The notes beneath the pieces were generated by a model. It was given only the letters and a program-made list of their open reading frames with translations, was not told the origin of the DNA and searched no databases. Positions 50,334 to 64,000 of a stretch of DNA of 64,000 nt are shown piece after piece (position 1 is the first letter of the stretch; every line of letters begins with the position of its first letter). Location: positions 248,001 to 312,000 of the forward strand of contig NZ_JAHXBG010000002.1 in the NCBI RefSeq assembly GCF_020103725.1. Reading direction: 5' to 3'. The DNA is from Hyalangium gracile (GTDB taxonomy: Bacteria > Myxococcota > Myxococcia > Myxococcales > Myxococcaceae). Both the position numbers and the translations under genes were made by a program.

Positions 50334-50756
50334 TCAGGCGCTCTGGCCCTGGCACTTTGCGAGCACCAGGTTCACGAACGTCCGCACGGAGAACAGGGTG
50401 AGGATCTGAGAGGGACGCAGCCCGGGCTGGATGCGGTGGGAGGCCTCCGGCATCAGCTCGCGGAGCCGCGTCAGCCCCGCCTCCGAGATGACGCCTCCGG
50501 GCGCGAACTCCTCGTCGGACATGGTGCCTCGGGCGGCACGCTCCATCTCCCCGCGAGTAATCTGGATGTCGAAGGCGCGCTCCAGCTTGAAGACGATGTC
50601 CAGGAAGTCGAGCGACTCGGCGCCGAGCTCCTCCATGAGGATGCTCTCGAGCTTCACCTCGGAGATGTCCCGGGCCAGCGCTTCGGCGACGACCTCGCGC
50701 ACCGTCTGCTCCGTCTTCTGGACCTCATCCCGGCTGGGTGCGACTGCGACGGTCAT
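50334..50756 (-). CDS. Acyl carrier protein with a long C-terminal extension
   Basis: A 140-residue ACP, last gene of the ketosynthase operon. Seen: helix I (VREVVAEALA), the 4'-phosphopantetheine attachment motif GAESLDFLD with Ser near residue 53, and helix II/III (VFKLERAFDIQI). A normal ACP ends around 80 residues; here about 55 residues follow, including LRELMPEASHRIQPGLRPSQ, which may dock a partner. Glu-Ser-Leu replaces the common Asp-Ser-Leu. The start overlaps the stop of the nitroreductase gene by ATGA. It should carry the growing chain made by the upstream ketosynthases. Confidence 0.88.
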   Translation of the reverse strand: MTVAVAPSRDEVQKTEQTVREVVAEALARDISEVKLESILMEELGAESLDFLDIVFKLERAFDIQITRGEMERAARGTMSDEEFAPGGVISEAGLTRLRELMPEASHRIQPGLRPSQILTLFSVRTFVNLVLAKCQGQSA

Positions 50757-51427
50757 GACTGGGCCTCCCGAGGCTCGGCGTCATCCTCGAACCACGTCAC
50801 TACCTGCGCAAGGGGCTTGCGAGAGGGCTTCGTCGGGAGCTGCTCCGGGTAGCCGACGGCCATGGCTCCGACCATCTTCCACGGCTCCCGGATGTCCAGC
50901 AGGCGCTGGATCTCGTCGCGAGCGATCATCGGTCCGGACATCCAGCAGGCGCCCAGCCCCTCGGCCTGGGCCTGGAGCAGCAGGGCCATGCAGGCGGCAC
51001 TCGTCGAACAGAGCTCCGCCTGCATCGAGGCGGCGGTGTGGAACTTCGTCGGGTCCCCTCCCCCGGAGGCCACGAGGTTGGCGATGAGGTCCGGATAGAC
51101 GCGGTACTGCGGCACGATGATGGCCGTGGCGGTGGAGAGGGGCTCGTGGAAGAAGTCCCCGTACTGGCCGAAGTCCTCCGCGTGGTGGCCCTGCCGGATG
51201 ATGGCCTTCATTTCCTCGGCTCGGAGGCGAACGGCCTCGGTGATGCGCTGGCGGAGGGTGCTCTTGGTCACGACCGCGAAGCGCCAGGGCTGGCGGTTGG
51301 TGGGGGAAGGAGCCGTCACCGCCGCCTGCATCAGCCGCTCCAGCACGGCGCGGGGAACCGGCTGGGCCGTGAAGGCGCGCACGCTCCTGCGCAGGGAGAG
51401 GAGATCCAGAAAGGATTCGCCATTCAT
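50753..51427 (-). CDS. Nitroreductase-family flavoprotein
   Basis: A 224-residue FMN enzyme of the nitroreductase fold. Seen: [30 protein letters not shown] (FMN contact), and [11 protein letters not shown]. Members use NAD(P)H to reduce nitro groups, quinones, enones or act as oxidases in biosynthetic clusters. Here it sits between the ACP and the FabG-like gene, overlapping both by ATGA, so it most likely acts on the acyl intermediate, for example as a double-bond reductase or oxidase. A second possible ATG is in another frame; the start at 51427 agrees with the overlap pattern. Substrate is inferred only. Confidence 0.85.
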
Positions 51428-52167
51428 TCGAGCTTGAACCCTCCATCCACGTTCCACACCTGACCGGTGACGTAGCTGGCGTCCGAGGAGCACAGGAAGG
51501 CCACCACCTTCGCCACCTCCTCGGGCCGCCCAGGACGCCGCAGCAGGATGCGCTTCTTCACCTCATCGGGCGCAAGGGCGAGGATGTCCCGGGTCATCTC
51601 GGTCTCGATGACTCCGGGGGCGACCGCGTTCACCCGGATGTTCCTGGGGGCCAGCTCCACGGCAAGGGCTCGCACGAAGGACTCCACCGCGCCCTTGGTG
51701 GCGGCGTAGAGGCTCTGGCCCCGCCCGGGGCGCTGCCCCGCGACCGAGGAGAGCGCCACGATGGAGCCCCTCCGACGCCCGAGCATGCGCTTCGTGGCCT
51801 CGCGGCAGCAGTGCACCACGCCGTCCAGGTTGATGGCACGGACCGCGTCGAGGTCCTCGGGAGTGCTCGCGCCCAGGAGCGTGTCCCGGGTGACTCCAGC
51901 GCCGCAGACGAGCACGTCGACGGGGCCGAGCTGGCGCTCCGCGTCCTCGAAGAGGCGGGCCACCTGCGCCGCGTCCGTGACGTCCGCCTTCAGCAGGAGC
52001 GCCTTCTGGCCGAGCGCCTCCACCTCGCGTGCGACCTCCGCCGCACGAGCCTCCTGGTCGCGAAAGCCGATGCCTACGGAGTAGCCACGGCGCGCCAGCT
52101 CCAGCACGACGGCCCGGCCGATTCCCCGTGAGCCTCCGGTCACCAGCGCCACGGTTGGGTCGCTCAT
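51424..52167 (-). CDS. FabG-like 3-ketoacyl-ACP reductase (SDR)
   Basis: A 247-residue classical SDR. Seen: [11 protein letters not shown] for NADP binding, [12 protein letters not shown], catalytic Ser in ALSSVAG, YxxxK as YAATK near residue 156, and [16 protein letters not shown]. In a cluster with ketosynthases, a dehydratase and an ACP it most likely reduces the beta-keto group of the ACP-bound chain to the hydroxyl. The start overlaps the stop of the upstream ketosynthase-like gene by ATGA, and its own stop overlaps the nitroreductase start. Confidence 0.92.
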
Positions 52168-53363
52168 GGGGCACCTCGCAAGGCGGGAGCATCCGTGATT
52201 TCGATTCGGACCGCAGCCGCCAGCCCCGGCGCCCCCGTGGAGAGCGCCAGTGCCGATCGCGCATCTGTCGGCTGGGACTCTCGAAGAGGGATGAGCGGGC
52301 CTTCCGCAGGCTCACGCAGGCCCGTGATGCCGGGGAGCACGCCTCGGCCCAGGCAGTTCCCGAGGGCGATCGCCTGAACCAACGTGGTGGCGGCTCCCAG
52401 TTGTCCGAAGGCGGCCTGGACCGCCGTGAGCCTCGCGCCCTCCCCTAGCGATCCCGCCAGCACCGTTCTCTCCTCCGTGTCCAGCCCAGGCACCGCCCTC
52501 CCGGCGCCGTCCACGACCGTGTCTGCTCGCGCGACTCGTGCAGCGACGGCAGCGAGGGTCTCCGAGCCAGGCTCCGAGGGACGGCCATCGCCCCCATCCG
52601 CAGCCGTGATCGACATGAGCGCTCCCCCGCTACCCGGCCGTTGCAGCACGAGCGCCGCGGCGGCCTCTCCGGGGACGAAGCCGCCCGCTTGGACGTCATA
52701 AGGAGCCGCGAGGCGCGCCAGCTCCGCGGTGGTCGCGGCCCCACGCGCGGCAAGGTCGACCAGGGTCTCGGGCTCGAGCAGCGAGTCGTAGGCGAACACC
52801 AGCGCCACATCGATGCTCCCCGCGTCGAGCGCCCGGATGGCCGCGCCGAGCGCCTGGGAGCCTGCCGTGGCTCCGCCGTACGTCGCGCCATCACCCCGCG
52901 CCGACAGGTCCGCCGCGAGCAGGGCATGCGCGTTGTTGGAGAGGTGCTTGAGCATCCAGTACGGGTGGATGCGCTTGAGGCCTCGCTCCCACGTGCCGCT
53001 CTGCTCCGGCTGCTGCCCGGAGAGCGCCTCCATCATGTCGTCCCAGTGGGCGCGCAGTCCGCCGTAGCCACAGAAGATGCCTAGCCGCTCTCCGGAAACC
53101 TCACAGCCACGGGTGCGTGCCTGCTGGAGCGCTTCATGCGCGGCCTCCAGCCCGAAGAGGCCCATCCTTCGCAGGAAGCGCGAGTGCTTGGAGCGCTGCG
53201 GAGAGGAGAGGATCGGCGCACCGATGCGGCAGGCGTAGGTGCGGGTCTCGAAGCGAAGCTGGTCCGTCGCGGCCCGCTCTCCCGCGAGGAGCCGACCCAC
53301 GGCGGTGTCCACCGTGTCTCCCAGCGGCGTGCGCCAGGCCTGGCCGACGACGTCCACGCTCAT
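52164..53363 (-). CDS. Ketosynthase-fold protein lacking all three catalytic residues (CLF-like)
   Basis: A 399-residue thiolase-fold protein of the KAS family. The active-site Cys of ketosynthases is replaced ([13 protein letters not shown], Thr where Cys is expected). The first His motif HGTGT is absent (VVDGAGRAV in its place), and the second, GH in active enzymes, reads [10 protein letters not shown]. The fold motifs ([28 protein letters not shown]) are retained. It is the second inactive member in this operon and directly follows an intact ketosynthase, overlapping it by ATGA. By analogy with type II PKS it may be a chain-length factor partner of that enzyme. Confidence 0.82.
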
Positions 53364-54643
53364 GACCATCTCCCGAGGATGATGGTCGCGTTCTGGCCTC
53401 CGAACCCGAAGGAGTTCGAGAGCACCGTGTCCACGTGGGCCTCGCGCGGCCGCTCGCCAATGACGTCGATGTCGCACTCGGGATCGCGCTCGCGGTGGTG
53501 CGCCGTCCCAGGCAGGCAGTCACGCTGGAAGGGTAGCAGACAGGCCGCCAGCTCGACGGCTCCCGAGGCCGCCATCAGGTGTCCCACCGCGCCCTTGATG
53601 GAGCTGACCGGCACGTGGCCCAGCACCTCGCGGATGGCCCGAGCCTCCGCGGGATCGTTGAGCGGCGTGCCCGTGCCGTGGGCATTCACATAGCCGATGT
53701 CGCGAGCGGAGAGACCGGCACGCTTCAGCGCCTGCTGCATGGCCCGCTTCGCCATGGCGCCATCCGGCAGAGGGGCCGTGGCCCTGTAGGCGTCCTGGGT
53801 GCTCCCCCACCCGAGGATGCGTGCCAGGGGGAGTGCGCCGCGCGCGAGGGCTCGCTCCTCCGACTCAACGACGAACATGGCGGCGCCTTCGCCGATGACG
53901 AGCCCATCCCGCCGCCGATCAAAGGGGCGGCACGCATCCGGCTCGGCACGAGGCGAAGGGGCTCCCAGGCGGGACATTCCTCCGAGCCCGAGGGGATTCA
54001 CCATCGAGTCGCTCGCGCCGCACAGCACTCGCGTGGCCGCACCGCGCTCGATGAGCGAGGCGGCGTGGGCCACCGCGAGCGTGCCCGCCGCGCACGCCGA
54101 GACGTGCGGTATCACGGGCCCTCCGAGGCGCAGCATCGAAGTGAGCCCCTCGGCACAGAGATCGATCCGGGAACGGAAGCGCACCCGAGGCAATGGCGCA
54201 CCGGACTCGGCGGCCCAGTCGATGGACGGGCGTCCTCCCTCCTTGCGCAGCAGCGGCCCGAAGTCCTCTAGGAAGGCCTGCTCCAGCCCGAGGGCCATGG
54301 ACAGCCAGGTGTCCTGGCCATCGTCGCCGCAGCCCGCCTGGCGCCAGGCCTCCAGCGCGGCGACCCACCCGAAGCCAATCTTCCTGTCGCGCAGTGCTCC
54401 GGACTGCTCCCAGGCCTCGATGGCGACCTCGGACAGGTGTCCACCCAGGGCTTCCCGGAGCCAGGTTCCATTCGTCTCCAGGACCGGCACCTCTCCAGCC
54501 ACCCGGGTCGGGAGCTTCGAGGCGTCGAAGTGACGGATGGGCCCCACGGCGGCTCGGCCCTCGCTGAGCGCGTTCCAGAACGCCCGTGTCCCCAGACCCA
54601 GGGCGGAGACGATCCCGCAGCCCGTGATGACGGCGCGGCTCAC
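53360..54643 (-). CDS. Beta-ketoacyl synthase, catalytically complete
   Basis: A 427-residue KAS II-type enzyme. Seen: VSACAAGTLAVAHA with the active-site Cys near residue 183, AHGTGTPLND near 318, IKGAVGHLMAASG near 351 and SNSFGFGGQNA near the end, which gives Cys-His-His. It catalyses decarboxylative condensation of an acyl thioester with malonyl-ACP. It lies between two ketosynthase-like proteins that have lost their catalytic residues and overlaps both by ATGA, which suggests a KS-CLF pair with one of them. The operon has a second intact ketosynthase upstream, so two different condensation steps or chain lengths may be involved. Confidence 0.92.
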   Translation of the reverse strand: MSRAVITGCGIVSALGLGTRAFWNALSEGRAAVGPIRHFDASKLPTRVAGEVPVLETNGTWLREALGGHLSEVAIEAWEQSGALRDRKIGFGWVAALEAWRQAGCGDDGQDTWLSMALGLEQAFLEDFGPLLRKEGGRPSIDWAAESGAPLPRVRFRSRIDLCAEGLTSMLRLGGPVIPHVSACAAGTLAVAHAASLIERGAATRVLCGASDSMVNPLGLGGMSRLGAPSPRAEPDACRPFDRRRDGLVIGEGAAMFVVESEERALARGALPLARILGWGSTQDAYRATAPLPDGAMAKRAMQQALKRAGLSARDIGYVNAHGTGTPLNDPAEARAIREVLGHVPVSSIKGAVGHLMAASGAVELAACLLPFQRDCLPGTAHHRERDPECDIDVIGERPREAHVDTVLSNSFGFGGQNATIILGRWS

Positions 54644-55680
54644 GACGTCCCCTCCCGGACGAGCCCTACGATCCCCAGGCTCTCATCCGGTCCCGCGACG
54701 AGCACCCCCACCCGCAGCGCTCCCTCCTGGAGGAGATCCAGCGCCACCACCGTCGCCAAGGCCGCGGAGGCGGCCAGCGTCTCACCGAAGAACTCGGAGG
54801 CCTGGAGAACAGCTCCCGTCCCCACCGTGGCGGCGATCTCGTGCGCGCTCCCTCCGCGCCCGGAAGAGGCCGCGAGCACCACCACCTCCGGGTTGAAAGC
54901 GATGAGGGAGCGCCTCGCGGACTCGAGCGAGAGATCGATCTGCTGCCTCCGAGGGTGGACCTCACAGCGCTCGAGGATGGCGAGCGAACTCCCGGTTCCC
55001 TGAGGGGCCAGCGCGAGCACCGCAGCGCCCTCTCCCGGCATCACGGATGCGTATCCGTCACGGCGCAGCTCCGCCCAGGTCACAGGATGAAGCGCCGAGT
55101 CCGCACCGCCCGCGAGCGCCGTCTCGCACTCGCCTGAGGCGACCGCGTAGCGCGCCTCCGCCAGCGCCAGCACCGTGCCCGCCCCTCGTGAGAAGATCGC
55201 GGCGTTCGGGCCCCTCAGCCCCTCGCGGATGGCGGCATGGCAGAGGGTGTAGTTGTTCATCAGCTGGAAGGCGAACAGCGGATTGCAGGCGTTGAGGCCT
55301 GCGGTGCCAAACCGCCCCACATCGAAGTGAGCCTCCGAGAAGCTCCCTTCGAGCATCGCCTCGAGCTCCTCCACCGCGCCCCCCGAGGCGCCCACGCCCA
55401 GGAAGAAGCCTGTCTCCTCCCTCGGCAGGGACGGCATCTCCTGGAAGAGCTGGCGGGCCGCCACGCAGGACAGGCGTGCCCCTCGGCTCATCAGCTTGCG
55501 CTGGCGTGGTTCCACGTCCTGAGCCGCGGGCAATGCGGGCACCTGCGCGGCGAGGATGCCTCCGAGCGCCTCACACGGCGTGGCAGCGCTCGTGCCCGTG
55601 CGAAGCGCCTGACCGAGACCGCGCCAGCCCAGCCCTCGGGCACTCACAGCGGAGGCAGCGACCACGGCCACGGGCCTCAT
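54640..55680 (-). CDS. Ketosynthase-like protein without catalytic residues (CLF-like)
   Basis: A 346-residue, shortened KAS-fold protein. The nucleophile position reads IFSRGAGTVLA, with Arg where the Cys of SACAAGT should be. The HGTGT motif reads AASSGRGGS, and the second His reads FFGETLAASAAL. It is clearly homologous (NYTLCHAAIREGL, GGADSALHPVTW) but cannot condense. It follows the intact ketosynthase (55677-56876) with an ATGA overlap and precedes the next intact one. It most likely acts as a chain-length factor or as a structural partner. Confidence 0.82.
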   Translation of the reverse strand: MRPVAVVAASAVSARGLGWRGLGQALRTGTSAATPCEALGGILAAQVPALPAAQDVEPRQRKLMSRGARLSCVAARQLFQEMPSLPREETGFFLGVGASGGAVEELEAMLEGSFSEAHFDVGRFGTAGLNACNPLFAFQLMNNYTLCHAAIREGLRGPNAAIFSRGAGTVLALAEARYAVASGECETALAGGADSALHPVTWAELRRDGYASVMPGEGAAVLALAPQGTGSSLAILERCEVHPRRQQIDLSLESARRSLIAFNPEVVVLAASSGRGGSAHEIAATVGTGAVLQASEFFGETLAASAALATVVALDLLQEGALRVGVLVAGPDESLGIVGLVREGTS

Positions 55681-56876
55681 GCGCGGACCACCACGAGGCT
55701 CGTATTCGCTCCACCGAAGGCGAACGCATTGACCAGGGCGGAGTCCACCCGCTTGCGCAGCGCCGTCCCCTGCACGTGGGGAAGCTCGCAGCGGGGATCC
55801 GGGTGACGGAGGCCGGCGGTCGGAAGGATCTCTCCCCGCTCCAACGCATGGAGTGCGCAGAGCAAGCCCAGCGCTCCCGCGCCAGCGATCCAGTGGCCCA
55901 GGGCTCCTTTCACGGAGCTCACATGAGCCTGCGCCAGCCGCGAGCCCAGCACTCGCCGGAGCGCCTGAGCCTCCACCTCATCGTTGAGCTGTGTCGAGGT
56001 GCCGTGCGCCTGCACGCAGTCCACGGCCTCCAGCTTCGCCTCTCGCAGCGCGGCGCGCATGGCCATCGCGGCGCCCTCGCCCTCCGGATCCGGAGCCGTG
56101 AGGTGCCAGGCGTCAAGCGAGCGCCCCACCCCCGCCACCGAGGCCCGAGCGTTGCCCCGCTCCGCCGCGAGGACGACCATGGCCGCACCCTCTCCCACCA
56201 CGAAGCCATCCCGATGCGCATCGAAGGGGCACGAGACGCCACGGGCCGACAGCGCCCCCAGCAGCCCGAAGCCAGCCAGCATCAGCGGATCCACGTCGGC
56301 CCCGACGCCGCCGCACAGCGCCACGTCCACCTCACTCCGGCGGATGGCTCGCACGCCCTCGGCGATGGCCGCCGCGCCCGAGGAACACGCCAGGGACAGC
56401 GTCTCACACGGCCCGCGAGCCCTGAACTCCCCCGCCAGCATCGAAGCCACCGCCGCCGGAGACACCGCCGCCGCGTCGATACGGGGAGCCAGCTCTCGCG
56501 CCCGCTGGCCGAACGCGCCATGGTCGAAGCGAGCACCGCCTCCCGCCGCCTGAGCCAGCGCCAGCACCGTGGAGTAGCTCGCGCGGCCCGACTCGGCCCC
56601 GATGAAGACGCCCACCCGCTCCGGAGCGGCCTCCAGGCCCGCCTGGGCCCAGGCCTCACGCGCGGCCCGCAGGGCGAACTCCCTCCGGCGATCCTCCGCG
56701 CCCTCGGCGATGCCTCTCACCGGCGCCGCGACCTGGCACGGGAAGCCCTCCACGTCGAAGTGCTCCACCCGCGCGACGGCACTCTCCCCTCGCGCAAGGG
56801 CCTCGGCGGTGCTCGGCCAGTCCAGCCCGAGCGACGAGACCGCGCCCACGCCGCGCACAAAGGCCTCACGCCTCAT
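55677..56876 (-). CDS. Beta-ketoacyl synthase, catalytically complete
   Basis: A 399-residue KAS. Seen: SLACSSGAAAIAEG with active-site Cys near residue 164, QAHGTSTQLND near 291, VKGALGHWIAG near 322 and FAFGGANTSLVV. It is the first ketosynthase of the operon, 30 bases after the dehydratase, and overlaps the following inactive homologue by ATGA. With that partner it resembles the KS-CLF pairs of type II PKS and aryl polyene clusters. The product is unknown. Confidence 0.92.
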   Translation of the reverse strand: MRREAFVRGVGAVSSLGLDWPSTAEALARGESAVARVEHFDVEGFPCQVAAPVRGIAEGAEDRRREFALRAAREAWAQAGLEAAPERVGVFIGAESGRASYSTVLALAQAAGGGARFDHGAFGQRARELAPRIDAAAVSPAAVASMLAGEFRARGPCETLSLACSSGAAAIAEGVRAIRRSEVDVALCGGVGADVDPLMLAGFGLLGALSARGVSCPFDAHRDGFVVGEGAAMVVLAAERGNARASVAGVGRSLDAWHLTAPDPEGEGAAMAMRAALREAKLEAVDCVQAHGTSTQLNDEVEAQALRRVLGSRLAQAHVSSVKGALGHWIAGAGALGLLCALHALERGEILPTAGLRHPDPRCELPHVQGTALRKRVDSALVNAFAFGGANTSLVVVRA

Positions 56877-56906
56877 GGCCGCACCCCGCGTGTGGCACCC
56901 GCGCCC

Positions 56907-57374
56907 TCACGGCTCCTCCGCGGCTCCCGTGAGCCAGACGTTGAGCACCTCACGACGGCGCGCGCGCAGCTTCTCGCTCTTCACCTCGGCGAAGGCGAAC
57001 GTGAGCTCGGCCTCGGCCGCGAGCTGCCCATCCACGGAGGCCGTCGCGCGCACCTGACCGCCCTCTTCACGGGCAGTGATGAGGCGCGCCTCCAGCTCCA
57101 GCTTGTCTCCAGGGCGCACCATGCGGCGGAACTTTGCCCGATCCACCATCGTCAGGAGCGCGTGGAGATCGTTGCGCCCGCGCTCGCGCATGGTGGCCTC
57201 CACCAGGACGCCGCCGAGCTGCGCCAGGGACTCGACGATGAGCGCGCCGGGCATGACGGGGTGGCCGGGGAAGTGGTCGACGAAGATGTCGTCCGAGAGC
57301 GAGACGCACTTGACGCCATGAGCCACCTCGGATGGCACCAGGCGCGTGATGCGGTCGAGCAGGACGTAGCGCAC
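56907..57374 (-). CDS. FabZ/FabA-like hotdog dehydratase
   Basis: A 155-residue hotdog-fold protein. Seen: HFPGHPVMPGALIVESLAQ with the catalytic His in the FabZ motif and Glu/Gln in the following helix, and DRAKFRRMVRPGDKLELEA. It should remove water from 3-hydroxyacyl-ACP, and would work with the FabG-like reductase in the same operon. It is the first gene of the unit. The GTG at 57374 is preferred because GGAGG is seven bases upstream; a GTG two codons earlier is only one base from that site. The divergent radical SAM gene starts 186 bases away. Confidence 0.9.
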   Translation of the reverse strand: MRYVLLDRITRLVPSEVAHGVKCVSLSDDIFVDHFPGHPVMPGALIVESLAQLGGVLVEATMRERGRNDLHALLTMVDRAKFRRMVRPGDKLELEARLITAREEGGQVRATASVDGQLAAEAELTFAFAEVKSEKLRARRREVLNVWLTGAAEEP

Positions 57375-57560
57375 GAGCACTCCTCCGCGTGCCGGGCCGG
57401 GCCTCCAGGAAGCGCCGCCGCCGGAGCGTGACGGGCTGCGCTATAGCACGCGCCCCAAGACCCTGGACAGGCGCACTCCGGACAAGCACGATGCCTCCAC
57501 CTGAGTCGCCCGATGCGCGCGTCTGTCGTGCCCCGATTCGTGGCGTCCACGGAGGCCTCC
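57375..57560. promoter_or_regulatory. Divergent promoter region with a palindrome
   Basis: The 186 bases between the dehydratase (minus) and the first radical SAM gene (plus) must carry promoters for both operons. A palindrome GCTATAGC at 57440-57447, within GCGCTATAGCACG, has a TATAGC that could serve as a -10, or the palindrome could be an operator. No -35 element was recognised. Confidence 0.45.
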
Positions 57561-59309
57561 ATGGAGTGCACGAGCTGCGCGCCCGTACCGGGAGTGGTCC
57601 AGCGGCCGGACAAGCCCCACACCTTCCTGCACCACGAGCCCTCTCGCTGCGAGCGCTGCGCCCAGTCGGTGGAGGCGCGCGTCGTGCTGCGCAAGGGCGA
57701 GGTCTGGGCCCTGAAGTTCTGCACCACCTGCGGCCAGACGGAGGCCAAGGTCGCCGACAGCGCGGACGCGTACCTGAACGCCTGGGTGAAGCGCGGAGAG
57801 GTGACCGATGACGCGCGAGACCACCTCTTCAAGCACACCACCTCCACCTGCCCCCAATGCCTGGCGCTGCTGCAGGCCGAGGTCGTCATCCGCCGAGGCA
57901 AGGTCTACTTCAAGAAGAACTGTCGCAAGTGCGGTCCCTCTGAGGCGCTGGTGAGCGAGGACGCGCGCTACTACGTGCGAGCCTACACCTTCGCTCGCGC
58001 GGGCACCGAGCCGCTGAAGTTCGCGGCCGAGGTGAAGCACGGCTGTCCCACCGACTGCGGCACCTGCTCGGACCACGAGCAGCACACCTGCCTGCCCATC
58101 GTCGAGGTGACGGACCACTGCAACCTCGAGTGCCCCATCTGCATCGTCAACAACCAGTACTCCAACCACATCGAGCTGGACACGTTCCAGCGCATCGTGA
58201 ACGGGATGGTGGAGCGCGAGGGACAGCTCGAGTCGCTGGCGCTCTCGGGCGGCGAGCCCACCAGCCACCCACGGATCCTCGAGCTGCTGCGGATCGCGAA
58301 CCGGCCGGAGATCGGCCGCATCGTGCTCATCACCAACGGCCTGCGCCTGGGCCGGGACCGAGCCTTCGCCGAGGCCGTGAAAGCCACTGGCGCCTACGTG
58401 GGGCTGCAGCTCGACGGCTTCACGGCGGACACGCACGAGAAGATCCGCGGGCGAGATCTCACCAAGGACAAGCAGGCGGCGCTGAAGATGCTGGAGGAGC
58501 TGAACATCCCCACGCAGATCATCTTCGTGGCCACGCGCGGGGTGAACGAGCACCAGATCGGCCAGGTGGTGCAGCTGCTCCTGGAGAAGGACTTCGTCCT
58601 CTCGCTCAACTTCCAGCCGGCCGCCTACACGGGCTTCGGCGGAGGCGCCTTCAAGCACGATCCGATGGATCGGCTCACCATCCCGGGCCTCATCCAGCGC
58701 ATCGAGGAGCAGACGGGCGGCAAGCTCAAGGTCAGCGACTTCTCGCCCCTGCCCTGCTCGCATCCGCAGTGCGTGTCGCTCACCTACCTACTGAAGCTGA
58801 ACGACGGCTCGTACATGCCCTTCGGGCGCTTCGTGGACTTCAAGCGCCACGGGACGCTGCTGCGCTCGTCGGCCACGCTGGGAGCGTCGCCGGAGATCCA
58901 TGACGCGCTGGAGGAAGTGATCCACGACGTCTTCGCCCGCCAGGACGAGGTGGAGCGAGGAACGGATGTCCTCAAGGCGCTGCGGCGCTCGCTGGACGTG
59001 ATGTTCCCGGACCGCAAGCTGACCAACAAGGAGTCCGTGCTCATCGGCGAGCAGCAGGCCAAGAGTATCTTCCTCCACCACTACATGGACCGGCACGACT
59101 TCGACCTGGAGCGGCTGCGCAAGTGCTGCCACCACTACCCGCAGGTGGATGGCCGCGTGATGCCGGCGTGCGGCTTCAACATGTTCCACCGCGGCGCGGC
59201 CAAGGGCCCGAAGACGGAGCTGGCTGCCTGGGGCAAGAAACCGTGGACGACGAACGTGCCCGTGAACGCGGCGGGCCCGGCGTCGTTCAAGCTGCCGGTG
59301 CTCAAATGA
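57561..59309 (+). CDS. Radical SAM enzyme of the Tes-like (tetraether lipid synthase) type, first copy
   Basis: A 582-residue radical SAM protein. Seen: two tandem N-terminal Cys modules (CERC...CTTCG near residues 33-65 and CPQC...CRKCG near 95-130), the block HGCPTDCGTC with HTC seven residues further on, and the SAM [4Fe-4S] motif CNLECPIC near 190. The C-terminal CCHHYPQ...RVMPACGFN follows. These match the pattern of Tes-like enzymes: an N-terminal CxxC...CxxHG-type knuckle, HGCPxDCGxC-HTC, the CxxxCxxC cluster, and a C-terminal CC...CxxN. Known Tes enzymes join lipid tails by C-C bonds. The N-terminal module is duplicated here with CxxCG in place of CxxHG. The start is chosen from GGAGG five bases upstream. 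It overlaps the following SDR by ATGA. Confidence 0.78.
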   Translation: MECTSCAPVPGVVQRPDKPHTFLHHEPSRCERCAQSVEARVVLRKGEVWALKFCTTCGQTEAKVADSADAYLNAWVKRGEVTDDARDHLFKHTTSTCPQCLALLQAEVVIRRGKVYFKKNCRKCGPSEALVSEDARYYVRAYTFARAGTEPLKFAAEVKHGCPTDCGTCSDHEQHTCLPIVEVTDHCNLECPICIVNNQYSNHIELDTFQRIVNGMVEREGQLESLALSGGEPTSHPRILELLRIANRPEIGRIVLITNGLRLGRDRAFAEAVKATGAYVGLQLDGFTADTHEKIRGRDLTKDKQAALKMLEELNIPTQIIFVATRGVNEHQIGQVVQLLLEKDFVLSLNFQPAAYTGFGGGAFKHDPMDRLTIPGLIQRIEEQTGGKLKVSDFSPLPCSHPQCVSLTYLLKLNDGSYMPFGRFVDFKRHGTLLRSSATLGASPEIHDALEEVIHDVFARQDEVERGTDVLKALRRSLDVMFPDRKLTNKESVLIGEQQAKSIFLHHYMDRHDFDLERLRKCCHHYPQVDGRVMPACGFNMFHRGAAKGPKTELAAWGKKPWTTNVPVNAAGPASFKLPVLK

Positions 59310-60046
59310 AGCTGCTGGAGGGCCGCACGGCGCTCGTCACTGGCGGCTCGCGAGGGCTGGGGCGAGCCATCTGCCTGACCCTGGCGCGCGAGGGCGCCAA
59401 CGTCGCCTTCTGCTACGCCCGCTCCGAGGAGCACGCCGCGGAGACGCTCGCGCGCATCCAGGAGCACGGCGTGCGCGGCCAGGCCTTCAAGGTCTCCGTG
59501 CTGGACAAGCCCGCGGTGCAGCGGATGGTGCGCACCCTGGAACAGGAGTCGGGAGGCGTGGACATCCTGGTGAACAACGCGGGCGTGGGCCAGGTGGTGC
59601 CGCTGGCGCTCATGGAGGAGGAGGACTGGGACCGCGTGATGAACACCAACGTCAAGGGCGCGTTCCTCGTCACCCAGGCGGCCATCCGCGGGATGATCCA
59701 CCGCAAGCGCGGCCGCATCCTCAACATCAGCTCGCTGGCCGGGGTGAAGATGATGCAGGCCCCCGTGCACTACTGCGCGGCGAAGGCGGCGCTCAAGGGC
59801 TTCACGGAGGCGCTGGCCAAGGAGCTCGGCCGCTACGGCGTCACGGTGAACTGCCTGGCGCCAGGCGTCCTGGAGGAAGGCGTCTCCGGCAACCTCCCGC
59901 AGCCGCGGCTCGAGGAGTACCTGCGCAACTGCGCCCTGGGGCGCGTGGGCACGATGGCGGAGGTCGCCGAGGTGGCCGCCTTCCTCGTCTCGGATCGCAA
60001 CAGCTACATGAACGGAGCCACGCTCGTCCTGGACGGCGCGGTGTAG
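59306..60046 (+). CDS. SDR reductase coupled to the first radical SAM gene
   Basis: A 246-residue FabG-type SDR. Seen: TGGSRGLGRAI for NADP, NNAGVG, NISSLAG with the catalytic Ser and YCAAK (Tyr-x3-Lys). The end motif EYLRNCALGRVGT is shared with the second SDR of the operon. It overlaps the radical SAM gene by ATGA and so is made together with it. Likely role: reduction of a keto group on the carrier-bound or lipid intermediate before or after the radical step. It is closely related to the protein at 61546-62289, as if the pair had been duplicated. Confidence 0.87.
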   Translation: MKLLEGRTALVTGGSRGLGRAICLTLAREGANVAFCYARSEEHAAETLARIQEHGVRGQAFKVSVLDKPAVQRMVRTLEQESGGVDILVNNAGVGQVVPLALMEEEDWDRVMNTNVKGAFLVTQAAIRGMIHRKRGRILNISSLAGVKMMQAPVHYCAAKAALKGFTEALAKELGRYGVTVNCLAPGVLEEGVSGNLPQPRLEEYLRNCALGRVGTMAEVAEVAAFLVSDRNSYMNGATLVLDGAV

Positions 60047-60055
60047 GGAGGGCGC

Positions 60056-61549
60056 ATGCCGGATGGATCCGTCGTCGCGGAGCGGCTGCTGCACGAGACG
60101 ACCAGCCTGTGTCGGCACTGCAAGAACGCGGTGCCCGCGCGGGTGGTGGCCGTCGGCGGCGAGGTGCACATGCGCAAGCGGTGCGAGTCGCATGGCGACC
60201 AGTCCGTGATGCTCTCGGATGACTCGGCCTGGTACGAGCGCACGCGCGCCATCGCCACGCCTCCCGCGCCTCCGGTGGCGCGCAAGGAGGTCCAGCATGG
60301 CTGCCCGTTCGACTGCGGCGCCTGCTCCGCGCACGAGCAGAAGGTGCGCCTGCCAGTGGTGACCATCACCAGCGCGTGCAACCTCAACTGCCCCATCTGC
60401 TACGTGCACAACAAGAACGAGGGCGCGTTCCACATGACGCTCGAGGAGTTCGACAAGATCCTCGGGCACCTGGTGAAGGACCACGGCGGCGAGCTGGACC
60501 TCATCAACTTCACGGGCGGCGAGCCCACGGTGCACCCGCACTTCCTCGAGTTCATCGAGCACGCCCACACAGCCGGGGCCCACCGCGTCACGATCTGCAG
60601 CAATGGCATCAAGCTCGCGCAGGACGAGCGGCTCGTGCAGCGGCTGGGGGAGCTTCAGGCGCGGGTGGCGCTCTCGTTCGACTCCTTCGAGCCCTCCGTG
60701 GACCAGGCGATGCAGGGAGCGCGGCTGCTGGACATCAAGCTTCGGTGCCTGGACCTGCTCGACAAGCACAACGTAGACACCACGCTCATCCCGGTGATGA
60801 CGCGCGGGTACAACGATCACGAGATCGGCCGCATCATCCAGCTCGGGCTGGAGCGCTCCTGCGTGCGGCACCTGGAGATCCACACCATCACCTATACCGG
60901 GCAGGGAGGCGTCAGCTTCGATCGCTCGGGGCGAATCTCGATGCACGAGGTGCTGCGGCGCATCGAGGAGACGACCGGGGGGATGCTGCGCGAGCAGGAC
61001 TTCGTGCCCTCCCCTTGCGCGCACCCGCTCTGCTACCAGATCGCCTACCTGCTGCTGGATCCGGAGGGCGGACCTCCGGTGCCGTTCACGCGCTTCATGC
61101 CGGCCGAGCAGTTCTACCAGGTGCTCGGCGAGCGCCTGTACCTGGAGCCGAGCCCGCGCCTGGAGGTGGCGATGCACGACGCCATCGATCGGCTGTGGGC
61201 CTTCGGCGGCGACGAGGCCGAGCGCACGCTGCGGATGCTGAAGCACCTGCTCGGCGTGCTCTTCCCACAGGGGAGGACGCTCAGCCGGCACGAGGGGCTG
61301 CGCGCCTCGGAGCGGTGGGTGAAGGCCGTCTACGTCCACTCGCACATGGACGAGGAGACCTTCGACGTGGAGCGGGTGATGCGCTGCTGTGACTCCAACT
61401 GCTACCCGGATGGGACCACCATCCCGGTGTGCAACTACAACGTGCTGTACCGGGAGAAGGAGGCGAAGTTCATGCGCGCGCCGAAGGCCTGGAACGAGCG
61501 GAGCGGCGGCTTCAAGCTCCCGGTCCTCAACAACGGGAGAGGCCAGTGA
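60056..61549 (+). CDS. Radical SAM enzyme of the Tes-like type, second copy
   Basis: A 497-residue relative of the first copy, shorter because it has only one N-terminal Cys module (CRHCK...KRCESHG). That module has the CxxHG form typical of Tes-family proteins. Seen: HGCPFDCGAC followed by HEQKVRL, so the fourth Cys of the HTC position is missing; the SAM motif CNLNCPIC near residue 110; FTGGEPTVHP; and the C-terminal CCDSNCYPDG...IPVCNYN. The SAM cluster is intact, so 5'-deoxyadenosyl radical chemistry is expected. The missing Cys may mean a changed auxiliary metal site. GGGAGGG lies three bases before the ATG. Overlaps the following SDR (GTGA). Confidence 0.78.
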   Translation: MPDGSVVAERLLHETTSLCRHCKNAVPARVVAVGGEVHMRKRCESHGDQSVMLSDDSAWYERTRAIATPPAPPVARKEVQHGCPFDCGACSAHEQKVRLPVVTITSACNLNCPICYVHNKNEGAFHMTLEEFDKILGHLVKDHGGELDLINFTGGEPTVHPHFLEFIEHAHTAGAHRVTICSNGIKLAQDERLVQRLGELQARVALSFDSFEPSVDQAMQGARLLDIKLRCLDLLDKHNVDTTLIPVMTRGYNDHEIGRIIQLGLERSCVRHLEIHTITYTGQGGVSFDRSGRISMHEVLRRIEETTGGMLREQDFVPSPCAHPLCYQIAYLLLDPEGGPPVPFTRFMPAEQFYQVLGERLYLEPSPRLEVAMHDAIDRLWAFGGDEAERTLRMLKHLLGVLFPQGRTLSRHEGLRASERWVKAVYVHSHMDEETFDVERVMRCCDSNCYPDGTTIPVCNYNVLYREKEAKFMRAPKAWNERSGGFKLPVLNNGRGQ

Positions 61550-62289
61550 CGCCGCGCATGGAGGGAAAGCGCTGCCTCGTCACCGGCGGCTCGCGCGGGT
61601 TGGGGCGGGCCATCTGCCAGGAGCTGGCGCGGGCGGGAGCACGTGTGGCCTTCACGTACTCGCGGAACACGCAGGACGCGGAGGAGGCTCGCGCGCGCAT
61701 TGCCGAGGCCGGCTCGGAGCCGCTGGTCTTCCAGGGCTCGGTGGCGGACGCCGAGCACGTGAAGAAGACGGTGGCCTCCGTGACGGAGGCCTGGGGCGGC
61801 ATCGACGTGCTCGTGAACAACGCGGGCGCCAACCAGGTCCTCCCGATCGCGCTCATCGAGGAGTCGGACTGGGACCTGGTGATGGACGTCAACGTCAAGG
61901 GGACCTACCTGTTCTCGCGGGCGGTGCTGCGACCGATGATCCGCGCTCGGGCGGGACGCATCCTGAACATCGGCTCGTTCGCCTCGGAGCGAGTGGTGGA
62001 GGCGCCCGTGCACTACGCGGCGGCCAAGTCCGCGCTGCGCGGGTTCACGGAGGCTCTCGCGCGGGAGGTGGGGCGCTACTCCATCCAGGTGAACCTGCTG
62101 GCGCCAGGGCTGATGGAGGCGGGACTGTCTCGCTCCCTGCCGCAGCACCGGCTGAATGAGTACCTCGGGCAGTGCTCGCTGGGGCGGCTCGGCACGGTGG
62201 AGGAGCTCGCGCGCATGGCTGTCTTCCTCGTCTCGGACGAGAACACGTTCATGACGGGCGCGAAGGTCGTCGCCGACGGTGGGCTGTAG
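61546..62289 (+). CDS. SDR reductase coupled to the second radical SAM gene
   Basis: A 247-residue SDR, close homologue of the SDR at 59306-60046. Seen: TGGSRGLGRAI, NIGSFAS, YAAAK, and EYLGQCSLGRLGT near the end. The GTG start at 61546 gives the overlap with the radical SAM stop (61549) and has GGAG six bases upstream; an ATG at 61558 is also open. The same gene pair, radical SAM then SDR, occurs twice in this operon. The function is probably NADPH-dependent reduction of a ketone. Confidence 0.87.
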   Translation: MTPRMEGKRCLVTGGSRGLGRAICQELARAGARVAFTYSRNTQDAEEARARIAEAGSEPLVFQGSVADAEHVKKTVASVTEAWGGIDVLVNNAGANQVLPIALIEESDWDLVMDVNVKGTYLFSRAVLRPMIRARAGRILNIGSFASERVVEAPVHYAAAKSALRGFTEALAREVGRYSIQVNLLAPGLMEAGLSRSLPQHRLNEYLGQCSLGRLGTVEELARMAVFLVSDENTFMTGAKVVADGGL

Positions 62290-62298
62290 GAGCATGGG

Positions 62299-63606
62299 AT
62301 GACGTTCAGCGTCGAAGACATCCTGCGCAGGGGGTTCGAGGACTTCCGCGAGTTCGTCAACCCGCTCATTGCGCTGCGCGCGGAGGTGGCCGGAGAGCCC
62401 ACGCGCGTCGTCCACGCACGAGAGGGCCGCCTGGAGGATGTCGAGGGCCACCTGATCGAGGACTTCCACGGGACGCAGGCCTTCGGGCACCGCAACCCCG
62501 CGATCGCGGCGGCGGTGCGCCAGTTTCTGGAGACGGACTCGCCCTCGTGGTTCCCCTCACGCGTGAACCCGTACGCGGGGAGCCTGGCGCGGCGCCTGTG
62601 CGAGCGCACCGGGTACTACTCCAACGCCTTCTTCGCGAGCTCCGGAAGCGAGGCGGTGGAGGCGGCCCTCAAGCTGGCCCGAGCGGTGACGCGCAGGCCG
62701 CGGGTGCTGTCGCTCGAGCGGGCGTACCACGGCTGCACCATGGGGAGCTGCGGCCTGATGACACCCGGGACGTTCCGGGACCCGTTCGATCCGCACCTGC
62801 CGGGCGTGGGTCCCCTGCCATTCGGAGACATCGACGCGCTGGCGAAGGCGCTGGAGCAGAAGGACGTGGCGGCCGTGGTGGTCGAGCCGATCCAGCTCGA
62901 GGGCGGCGTGCGTCCCCTGCCCCCCGAGTACATCGACGCGCTCTGCGAGCTGACGCAGCGGCACGGCACGCTCCTCGTGGCCGACGAGGTCCAGACGGGA
63001 CTGGGGCGCACGGGCCGATTCCTCGCGAGCGAGCGCTGGCCGCGCCGACCCGAGTGCGTGTTGCTGGCGAAGCACCTCGGCGGCGGACTCCTGCCCATCT
63101 CGGCGATGCTCACCCGGCGCGAGCTGTTCGAGACGGCGTACGGGAAGAACTTCGAGACGGCCGAGGCGCACAACTGCACCTTCAGCGGGAGCGCCATGGT
63201 GTGTGTCGCCGCGCACGCCGCGCTGGATCTGCTGACAGACTCGCTCATCGAGCACGTGCGCGACGTGGGAGCGGGCTTCCACTCCGGGCTCACGGAGGCG
63301 CTCTCCTCGCTGCCCCTATTCGAAGAGGTGCGCGGGGCCGGGCTGGTGGCGGGCATCGTGCTGAAGCCCACCGAGCACCCGTGGCTGTCCTTCGAGCACT
63401 TCGGCATGGAAGATCTGGCCCACCGGCCGACGATAGGACTGCTCCTGTGCCACCGCTTGTACAAGCGCGGCTACTTCTGCTTCGTCTGCGGCCATGACTG
63501 GAGCGTGCTGAGGCTGCAGCCGCGCTTCACCATCGCGCCCGATGCGCTGGCCACCTTCACCCGGGTCGCCCGGGAGGAACTGGAGTTCCTGTGCAATCTC
63601 GACTGA
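62299..63606 (+). CDS. Class III pyridoxal-phosphate aminotransferase
   Basis: A 435-residue fold-type I aminotransferase of class III. Seen: FASSGSEAVEAALKLAR for phosphate contact, VADEVQTGLGRTG with the PLP-binding Asp near residue 229, and LLAKHLGGGLLP with the Schiff-base Lys at about residue 258, followed by FSGSAMVC. Class III enzymes often act on omega-amino or aldehyde/ketone substrates. In this cluster it would aminate a carbonyl on a chain made by the ketosynthases or by the radical SAM step. It starts 10 bases after the previous gene and overlaps the next one. Confidence 0.9.
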   Translation: MTFSVEDILRRGFEDFREFVNPLIALRAEVAGEPTRVVHAREGRLEDVEGHLIEDFHGTQAFGHRNPAIAAAVRQFLETDSPSWFPSRVNPYAGSLARRLCERTGYYSNAFFASSGSEAVEAALKLARAVTRRPRVLSLERAYHGCTMGSCGLMTPGTFRDPFDPHLPGVGPLPFGDIDALAKALEQKDVAAVVVEPIQLEGGVRPLPPEYIDALCELTQRHGTLLVADEVQTGLGRTGRFLASERWPRRPECVLLAKHLGGGLLPISAMLTRRELFETAYGKNFETAEAHNCTFSGSAMVCVAAHAALDLLTDSLIEHVRDVGAGFHSGLTEALSSLPLFEEVRGAGLVAGIVLKPTEHPWLSFEHFGMEDLAHRPTIGLLLCHRLYKRGYFCFVCGHDWSVLRLQPRFTIAPDALATFTRVAREELEFLCNLD

Positions 63607-64000
63607 ATCCGCCTCGAGCGCTCGTCTTCGGAGGTACGGGAGCCGTGGGCTCGGAGGTGCTCCGAGGCTTGGCTCGCGCGAACGTCCCCACAGCCTTCAG
63701 CTGGCACCAGTCCAAGGAGCGGGCGCACGCCCTGGCCAGCGAGCTGTCGATGCGCCCGCTGCAGGTGGACCTCGCGGACGCCACGGCGACGCGCGGGGCA
63801 CTGCGAGCGCTGCGGGAGGAAGGTTTCGTGCCCAACCTCTTCATCCACTGCGCGGGGACGAACCCGAGCGCTTCGCTCGCGGATATCACGGATGAGAGCT
63901 GGCACAGGACGATGGCGGTGAACTGCCAGTCGGCGTTCATCGCCTGCCAGGAGCTGACTCCCGCCATGGCTCAGGCCGGCGAAGGGCACCTCGTGCTCGT
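63591..64000 (+). CDS. Third SDR of the operon, cut by the window end
   Basis: At least 136 residues of an SDR: FGGTGAVGSEVLRGL (TGxxGxxG motif), HCAGTNPSASL and MAVNCQSAF. The frame begins with GTG at 63591, inside the end of the aminotransferase gene (which stops at 63606), so the genes overlap. The catalytic Ser-Tyr-Lys part lies beyond the window. It seems to be a separate reductase rather than a copy of the two upstream SDRs. Confidence 0.78.
   Translation, partial: MQSRLNPPRALVFGGTGAVGSEVLRGLARANVPTAFSWHQSKERAHALASELSMRPLQVDLADATATRGALRALREEGFVPNLFIHCAGTNPSASLADITDESWHRTMAVNCQSAFIACQELTPAMAQAGEGHLVL

Follow-up and report, generated by a model that had tools for sequence, protein, structure and literature searches.

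A conserved gene set in Hyalangium gracile and other bacteria combines ketosynthase pairs with Tes-like radical SAM enzymes and suggests a new kind of bacterial lipid

The genome of the myxobacterium Hyalangium gracile (11.7 Mb in 81 contigs; assembly GCF_020103725.1) carries two divergent operons at the end of a 64,000-nucleotide stretch (contig NZ_JAHXBG010000002.1, positions 248,001 to 312,000), which is referred to here as the window and whose numbering is used throughout. One operon (50334-57374, minus strand) contains ketosynthase (KS) genes and other genes of acyl chain building. The other (57561-64316, plus strand) contains two genes for radical S-adenosylmethionine (SAM) enzymes resembling the archaeal tetraether lipid synthase Tes, three genes of the short-chain dehydrogenase/reductase (SDR) kind, and an aminotransferase gene. 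A first-pass annotation made from the DNA alone had described this gene content, order and strand arrangement, all of which were confirmed. The conserved gene set is apparently undescribed and suggests a new kind of bacterial lipid.

Genes of the two operons

The operons are separated by a single divergent intergenic (promoter) region of 186 bp (57375-57560), as had been proposed. Its length presumes that the dehydratase gene starts at GTG 57374 and TES1 at ATG 57561. Both start codons are backed by orthologues, and the M-D/E-C-x-x-C form of the TES1 start is common to most orthologues among the matches listed.

The minus-strand operon begins with DH (56907-57374), a FabZ-like hot-dog dehydratase (Pfam FabA, 1.9e-21; FabZ, 124 bits), which is followed by four KS homologues. 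KS1 (55677-56876) has intact catalytic residues, and KS3 (53360-54643) has an intact Cys-His-His set and matches a KAS II structure in the PDB at 8.3e-71. The other two resemble chain length factors (CLFs). KS2 (54640-55680) is short (346 aa) and its active-site Cys is replaced; KS4 (52164-53369) has no active-site Cys and matches only the N-terminal ketoacyl-synt domain in Pfam. The operon continues on the same strand with a FabG-like ketoacyl reductase (51424-52167) with Ser, Tyr and Lys intact, a flavin mononucleotide-dependent nitroreductase-family protein, NFR (50753-51427; Pfam Nitroreductase, 4e-33, for a longer frame, to 51493), and a long acyl carrier protein (ACP) of 140 aa (50334-50756; Pfam PP-binding, 6.7e-8) with its Ser present in GAESLDF. 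Solved relatives of NFR include an F420:glutamate ligase domain, iodotyrosine deiodinase and BluB-like proteins.

The distribution of the active-site Cys holds across relatives. With matches covering less than 60% of the query dropped beforehand, and the window's own rows included, the Cys was present in 14/14 KS1 and 19/19 KS3 aligned rows, and in 0/12 KS2 and 0/14 KS4 rows. (One contig, L074, is present twice and is counted twice here, as in the Tes-ligand and other active-site counts.) In other words, a KS with Cys-His-His adjoins a KS homologue without the Cys, and an ACP accompanies them, which is the mark of a type II KS·CLF system. Because of the Cys pattern and the gene order, KS1-KS4 look like two KS·CLF pairs, the assignment of partners being taken from gene order. 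Among the other chain-building proteins, Tyr-x3-Lys is present in 16/16 FabG rows and the ACP Ser in 22/22 rows of at least 40% identity; rows below 30-40% identity, depending on the family, were excluded from these counts and from those for the SDRs and the aminotransferase.

Could the locus make a polyene or pigment in the manner of aryl-polyene or highly reducing type II polyketide synthase systems, with the radical SAM enzymes acting in tailoring? A KS·CLF, a ketoreductase, a dehydratase and an ACP form the core of both of these systems. The KS phylogeny points elsewhere. After removal of near-identical or repeated rows, KS1-KS4 formed four clades, although bootstrap support was not fully settled, and KS3 proteins of the near and distant versions of the cluster (see below) clustered together. 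The KS3 group fell weakly near, but not among, E. coli FabF and FabB and two KS genes of E. coli CFT073, from a locus that we take to be an aryl-polyene locus, and all four clades were separate from these two genes. Moreover, the LolA-like, MMPL, thioesterase, glycosyltransferase and acyl-CoA synthetase genes annotated at the CFT073 locus were not found among the cluster genes scanned. Identity with the aryl-polyene system was not supported on these grounds, and a polyene or pigment pathway of this general kind appears improbable. The ketosynthases and CLF-like homologues named in the first-pass annotation thus stand, with the addition that they look like two pairs distinct from the CFT073 references.

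On the plus strand, SDR1 (59306-60046) overlaps the TES1 stop codon, and TES2 is followed by SDR2 (61546-62289), by a class III pyridoxal phosphate-dependent aminotransferase, AMT (62299-63606; Pfam Aminotran_3, 6e-67), and by SDR3 (63591-64316), which runs past the window end at 64000. Tyr and Lys are intact in SDR1 and SDR2. Tyr-x3-Lys is present in 33/33 SDR2 rows; the Lys occurs in all 23 SDR1 rows and the Tyr is absent from one. All three genes had been counted as SDRs. This holds for their family, but SDR3 is without the usual catalytic residues, its Tyr and Lys being replaced (HFAASQ). Among the 32 of 35 SDR3 rows listed, the Lys is absent in 27 and present in 5. Because the catalytic Lys is absent in most copies, SDR3 may be a degenerate structural partner, much as a CLF is to a KS. 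The AMT Lys, which lies in LLAKHLGGG, is present in all 33 rows listed, of 39. Of the NCBIfam models, PigE fits AMT best, with 282 bits (cut-off 850).

Tes-like radical SAM enzymes

TES1 (57561-59309) and TES2 (60056-61549), both on the plus strand, resemble Tes (also GDGT-MAS; MJ0619, PDB 7tol) in domain order and metal-ligand pattern. TES1, searched as a longer frame beginning at 57513, matches Pfam Radical_SAM and, in two stretches, Zn_ribbon_HMPTM; in other words, it carries a second N-terminal zinc-ribbon stretch. Its sole solved relative at 1e-30 or better is 7tol (1e-60). The same structure is the only match of TES2 at that level (7.5e-62), the remaining ones being 1e-8 or weaker. The first-pass annotation had counted two Tes-like genes. 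Two is correct for the window, and a third, TES3 (67442-69106, minus strand), lies beyond its end.

The metal ligands of Tes are largely conserved. Across 92 aligned Tes rows, nearly all ligand positions are kept at the rubredoxin site and at the N-terminal and radical SAM clusters. The proteins therefore combine a CX3CX2C radical SAM motif with a rubredoxin-like and two auxiliary [Fe4S4] ligand sets, the combination that characterizes Tes. The fourth rubredoxin ligand of TES1 is Cys instead of His in 16/31 rows. The C-terminal cysteines are kept in most of the 92 rows, and losses are confined to the seven most distant rows and to the second Cys of a CC pair. This second Cys is Pro or Ser in 12/29 TES3 rows (Pro in H. 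gracile) and is lost in 3/32 TES2 rows. H. gracile TES1 and TES2 have four C-terminal cysteines and TES3 has three.

In a Tes tree reduced from 92 to 81 rows by removing 11 near-identical or repeated ones, each of TES1, TES2 and TES3 from the near version has a clade of its own, and the three enzymes therefore probably carry out distinct steps. The wider TES1 group has modest support (90/66), and the distant version of the cluster has one TES1-like and one TES2/3-like gene. TES1-3 apparently represent a new branch of the Tes family that is present in cultured strains.

Tes-like genes also occur outside this arrangement. Other myxobacterial loci (L030, L031 and L040; also L029 and L042) carry a separate Tes-like gene that is 31-33% identical and has largely lost the C-terminal cluster cysteines. 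A fatty-acid-hydroxylase match lies near it in L030, L031 and L040. Another locus, L038 (genome G056), from a related myxobacterium, consists of one 11-kb contig on which Tes-like genes of two or more kinds lie side by side; it has no KS3 orthologue at a threshold of 1e-80.

Conservation and linkage across genomes

The first-pass annotation had proposed that co-occurrence of the KS pairs and the Tes-like genes be checked across myxobacteria. The association is conserved in isolates of Myxococcota and Massilia and in metagenome-assembled genomes (MAGs) of other phyla. Relatives of TES2 were found at 43 loci in public genomes. Neighbours were listed from tblastn maps, as clustering of all frames was too noisy and our own gene caller imperfect. 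Four units recur in these maps: DH-KS1-KS2-KS3-KS4-FabG-NFR-ACP, TES1-SDR1, TES2-SDR2-AMT-SDR3, and TES3. They are found, rearranged and sometimes incomplete, in myxobacteria, in Massilia, and in MAGs that carry a gammaproteobacterial or proteobacterial label. Sorangium So ce26 and MAGs that are assigned by their labels to Planctomycetota, Elusimicrobia and other groups have a distant version, in which a single KS is accompanied by a short partner and KS3 is 40-42% identical over its full length. The MAG labels are those of record titles, and the spread outside Myxococcota and Massilia rests on MAGs.

Among 195 Myxococcota genomes, six, including the window's own, have a KS3 match better than 1e-80, a cut chosen after the scores were seen; the matches that follow, from 4e-70 on, score like ordinary FabF or nearly so. 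In 6/6 of these genomes a Tes-like gene lies 2.8-3.3 kb from KS3, which shows that the proximity is not due to chance. A looser threshold of 1e-60 admits ordinary FabF; at this level KS3 matches occurred in 14/14 genomes, of which 11 were counted as sure and three (G147, G152 and G154) as unsure. One of the 11 (G157) has KS3 and TES1 on separate contigs. In the genus of the window a Tes-like match was found in 1/7 genomes, and the cluster is therefore patchy.

Similar linkage was observed in a second phylum. Of 294 genomes assigned by the search tool to the same family as a Massilia genome, six have a full-length TES1 of 71-72% identity, a seventh (G608) has a partial TES1, and 17 further genomes have a Tes-like match of 31-33% only. 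SDR1-TES1 is divergent from DH-KS1 in 6/6 of the full-length genomes, and TES3 lies on the same contig about 16 kb away in all six. In the Tes and KS trees the Massilia copy, with the same neighbours, nests within myxobacterial groups for TES1, KS1 and KS2. This nesting argues for transfer of the gene set between phyla.

A candidate pathway and its alternatives

How might these genes act together? The reading that we favor, with a probability of roughly 0.5, is that they form one horizontally mobile pathway to an amino lipid, with Tes-type reactions cross-linking its chains or closing them into rings. We infer the substrate, step order and product as follows. The two KS·CLF pairs, whose folds and residues are as described above, would build an acyl chain of set length with the cluster's own ACP, FabG and dehydratase. 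An SDR and the class III aminotransferase would then convert a hydroxyl or keto group to an amine, perhaps while the chain is still bound to ACP; amination of an ACP-bound keto group has a precedent in AmcC of cispentacin synthesis (PMC10698177). Three distinct Tes-type enzymes, two of them encoded next to an SDR gene, may join unactivated carbons of the hydrophobic chain or chains. The result would be an amino-functionalised lipid that is cyclised or joined tail to tail (bolaform, membrane-spanning), which a membrane hydroxylase and two membrane proteins might finish or place.

The hydroxylase and membrane proteins came to light past 64000, where the first-pass annotation had suggested looking and where TES3 was also found. 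The fatty-acid hydroxylase (66205-67425, minus strand) resembles the ornithine-lipid hydroxylase OlsE, at 76 bits and under the cut-off of 475. MEM1 (71715-72284) and MEM2 (72281-73567 at longest), both on the minus strand, are also present in other copies of the cluster. An AlphaFold model of MEM2 is all-helical with low confidence (mean pLDDT 62.8). The predicted structure had no PDB match at E<0.001, and the protein had Pfam matches only at E 0.36 or weaker and none in NCBIfam.

An amino or cross-linked lipid is favored because the linkage is conserved, because the Cys is intact in KS1 and KS3 and missing in KS2 and KS4, and because the Tes ligands are kept. The OlsE-like hydroxylase and the lipid-type neighbours of some copies (acyltransferase 3, LPG-synthase TM, zinc phospholipase C) speak for it as well. 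An amino-modified or cross-linked lipid had been put forward in the first-pass annotation, and both the Tes cofactor ligands, nearly all kept, and the lipid-type genes are consistent with that proposal, which stays conditional. A narrower form of the reading is offered more tentatively. It holds that the product belongs to a new class of bacterial amino tetra- or bolaform lipids whose chains would be made by dedicated KS·CLFs, aminated by the aminotransferase and linked by a His-bearing Tes branch at as many as three positions, outside normal fatty-acid and phospholipid metabolism, and that the pathway has passed between phyla.

Several observations weigh against the favored reading. No release enzyme or starter ligase was found among the genes scanned, those past 64000 included. 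None of the three TES proteins reaches the 450-bit cut-off of the NCBIfam Tes model NF045702 (best stretches 246, 202 and 201 bits; whole proteins 265, 237 and 230 bits), and the TrsS model scores slightly above the Tes model. Two residues of the archaeal enzyme also differ. The column of Met439, a labile ligand in Tes, holds His in 85/92 rows, and the Tyr459 column holds Tyr in 27/31 TES1 rows and in no TES2 or TES3 row; in most TES2 rows a Tyr lies two residues beyond it. These columns were mapped from a phmmer alignment, and the motif C9X2C12X20C33X2H36 fits at an offset of 20. Because of the two replacements, the reaction of TES1-3 could differ from that of archaeal Tes. Tes is reported to couple saturated lipid chains; about 1000 archaeal homologues all have Met439 and Tyr459, but the enzyme stays active with M439A or Y459F/L substitutions (PMC9433317).

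The same residues raise the possibility that the TES proteins do not catalyse C-C coupling but carry out another C-H chemistry, for example dehydrogenation, methylation, or oxidation with the paired SDRs that adjoin TES1 and TES2. The Pfam name HMPTM would fit this, as it presumably records an earlier methylase assignment. However, the C-terminal cysteines that would bind the cluster carrying the carbon-sulfur intermediate in Tes are retained, four in TES1 and TES2 of the window and three in TES3. A non-coupling chemistry, which overlaps with other readings, is on the unlikely side. More generally, the alternatives considered here overlap in part, and their odds do not sum to one.

Gene distribution is also in part at odds with a single pathway. 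A Tes-like match at 1e-60 is present in 15/195 Myxococcota genomes, and nine of the 15 have no KS3 better than 1e-80; six of the nine have only a 33% Tes-like match, and the others are G050, G056 and G143, the last on a 3.6-kb contig. The TES2-SDR2-AMT-SDR3 block does not share a contig with KS3, TES1 or TES3 in 4/4 Polyangium species, and in So ce26 it lies about 40 kb from the KS block. The cluster genes thus co-occur by genome, but not always by place. One could argue from this, and from the rearrangement of modules between genomes, that the TES proteins, like Tes and Mss, take ordinary membrane lipids as substrates, with the KS·CLF-aminotransferase metabolite being separate and merely co-located. 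Against such co-location, KS3 is less than 4 kb from a Tes-like gene in 6/6 Myxococcota genomes and KS1-DH is beside TES1 in 6/6 Massilia-family genomes. The expected linkage of the two operons therefore held in both groups, with the Polyangium block as the part that did not follow. Furthermore, His occupies the Met439 column in all KS-linked TES rows and is missing from the seven most distant rows (L029, L030, L031, L040, L042, L046 and L050); the 4-20 kb of DNA covered at these loci showed no KS gene. This argument is weakened by rows such as L038 and L039, which have the His in short loci without a KS. On balance, mere co-location seems quite unlikely.

No characterised pathway matched the cluster, in agreement with the first-pass annotation, which knew of none with this combination. 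Searches of an open-access library showed no described pathway with Tes-like enzymes and a KS·CLF (subscription papers and preprints were outside the search). Unlike the archaeal Tes gene MJ0619, the cluster genes are bacterial, number three paralogues in the near version, and are linked to KS·CLF, SDR and aminotransferase genes; their products fall below the NCBIfam Tes cut-off, carry His for the labile Met439, and have the Tyr459-column Tyr in the TES1 group only. The bacterial membrane-spanning lipid synthase Mss, compared by description, has a Tes-like catalytic architecture according to models and joins bacterial acyl chains, but its substrates are ordinary acyl glycerolipids, with Ger/PlsA responsible for ether bonds (PMC13274423, PMC11868695).

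The cispentacin system AmcB-AmcH (PMC10698177) likewise pairs a KS with a shortened KS-like protein on an ACP of its own, and includes a FabZ-kind hot-dog enzyme as well as a class III aminotransferase whose target is an ACP-bound keto group. It differs in having an adenylating 2-oxoglutarate ligase (AmcH) and a thioesterase (AmcD), neither of which was among the cluster genes scanned, and the words radical SAM do not appear in the report. Identity was rejected, with the AmcF, AmcB and AmcE models all under cut-off: KS3 scored 198 bits and KS1 179 (cut-off 325), ACP 22 (80) and DH 44 (140).

Candidate ladderane clusters of anammox bacteria resemble the cluster in another way. They broadly share its make-up of type II fatty-acid synthesis genes, KS paralogues with an altered active site, and several radical SAM genes (PMC2649909, PMC4790861). 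The product could accordingly be a polycyclic (ladder-like or multi-ring) acyl lipid, made by intramolecular radical SAM ring closures of a KS·CLF polyene as proposed for ladderanes. A polyene is conceivable because the nitroreductase is the only reductase candidate for a double bond; no classical enoyl reductase was named among the window genes scanned beyond generic SDR matches. However, 25/25 anammox-like planctomycete genomes are without a clear Tes-family gene, and identity with the ladderane system was not supported. Their best Tes-model match scores 81.8 bits, compared to 201-246 for TES1-3, and nearly all their other matches cover the radical SAM core only, as in control bacteria. The 25 were picked, by a frame of about 715-844 aa, from the 76/392 planctomycete genomes with an HZS-alpha match, the match in such a frame being the basis on which they are taken to be anammox-like. 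Moreover, no phytoene-desaturase-like gene was among the cluster genes scanned, and the words aminotransferase and nitroreductase are absent from PMC2649909. A polycyclic product is therefore rather doubtful. As a separate matter, many of the frames matching Pfam HZS_alpha (PF18582) in the 76/392 genomes are large or repeated, and the model alone therefore does not mark anammox bacteria.

If the favored amino-lipid reading is true, the cluster would hold new enzymes for coupling C-H to C-C bonds and a possible new lipid biomarker. As of 2025, bacterial Tes homologues were experimentally unconfirmed as makers of membrane-spanning lipids (PMC11868695). Named strains of Massilia and Polyangium have such homologues together with the chain-building set, and Sorangium cellulosum So ce26 has the distant version. 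A single knockout combined with lipid profiling could therefore reveal the substrate and product of this bacterial Tes branch.

Several neighbouring genes lie outside the recurring units. A GST-like gene (64344-64988, plus strand) follows SDR3. Between it and the hydroxylase, a 1.2-kb stretch (64989-66204; L003:989-2204) has 57% GC compared to 69% in the window; it gave no match in Rfam, and its 216-aa minus-strand open reading frame encodes a VanZ-family protein (Pfam, 3.4e-19). A clostripain-family peptidase (69158-70561) between TES3 and MEM1 was not found in the other copies mapped by tblastn. Many copies carry a radical SAM gene of the SPASM kind (L027:2758-4113, Massilia L132/L133, L084, L091 and L134), to which the genome of the window offers no better match than 33%; next to this gene, most copies that have it carry a second class III aminotransferase. 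At L025 (genome G013), apparent P450 and Rieske oxygenase genes, so named from their sequence, lie among or beside the cluster genes.

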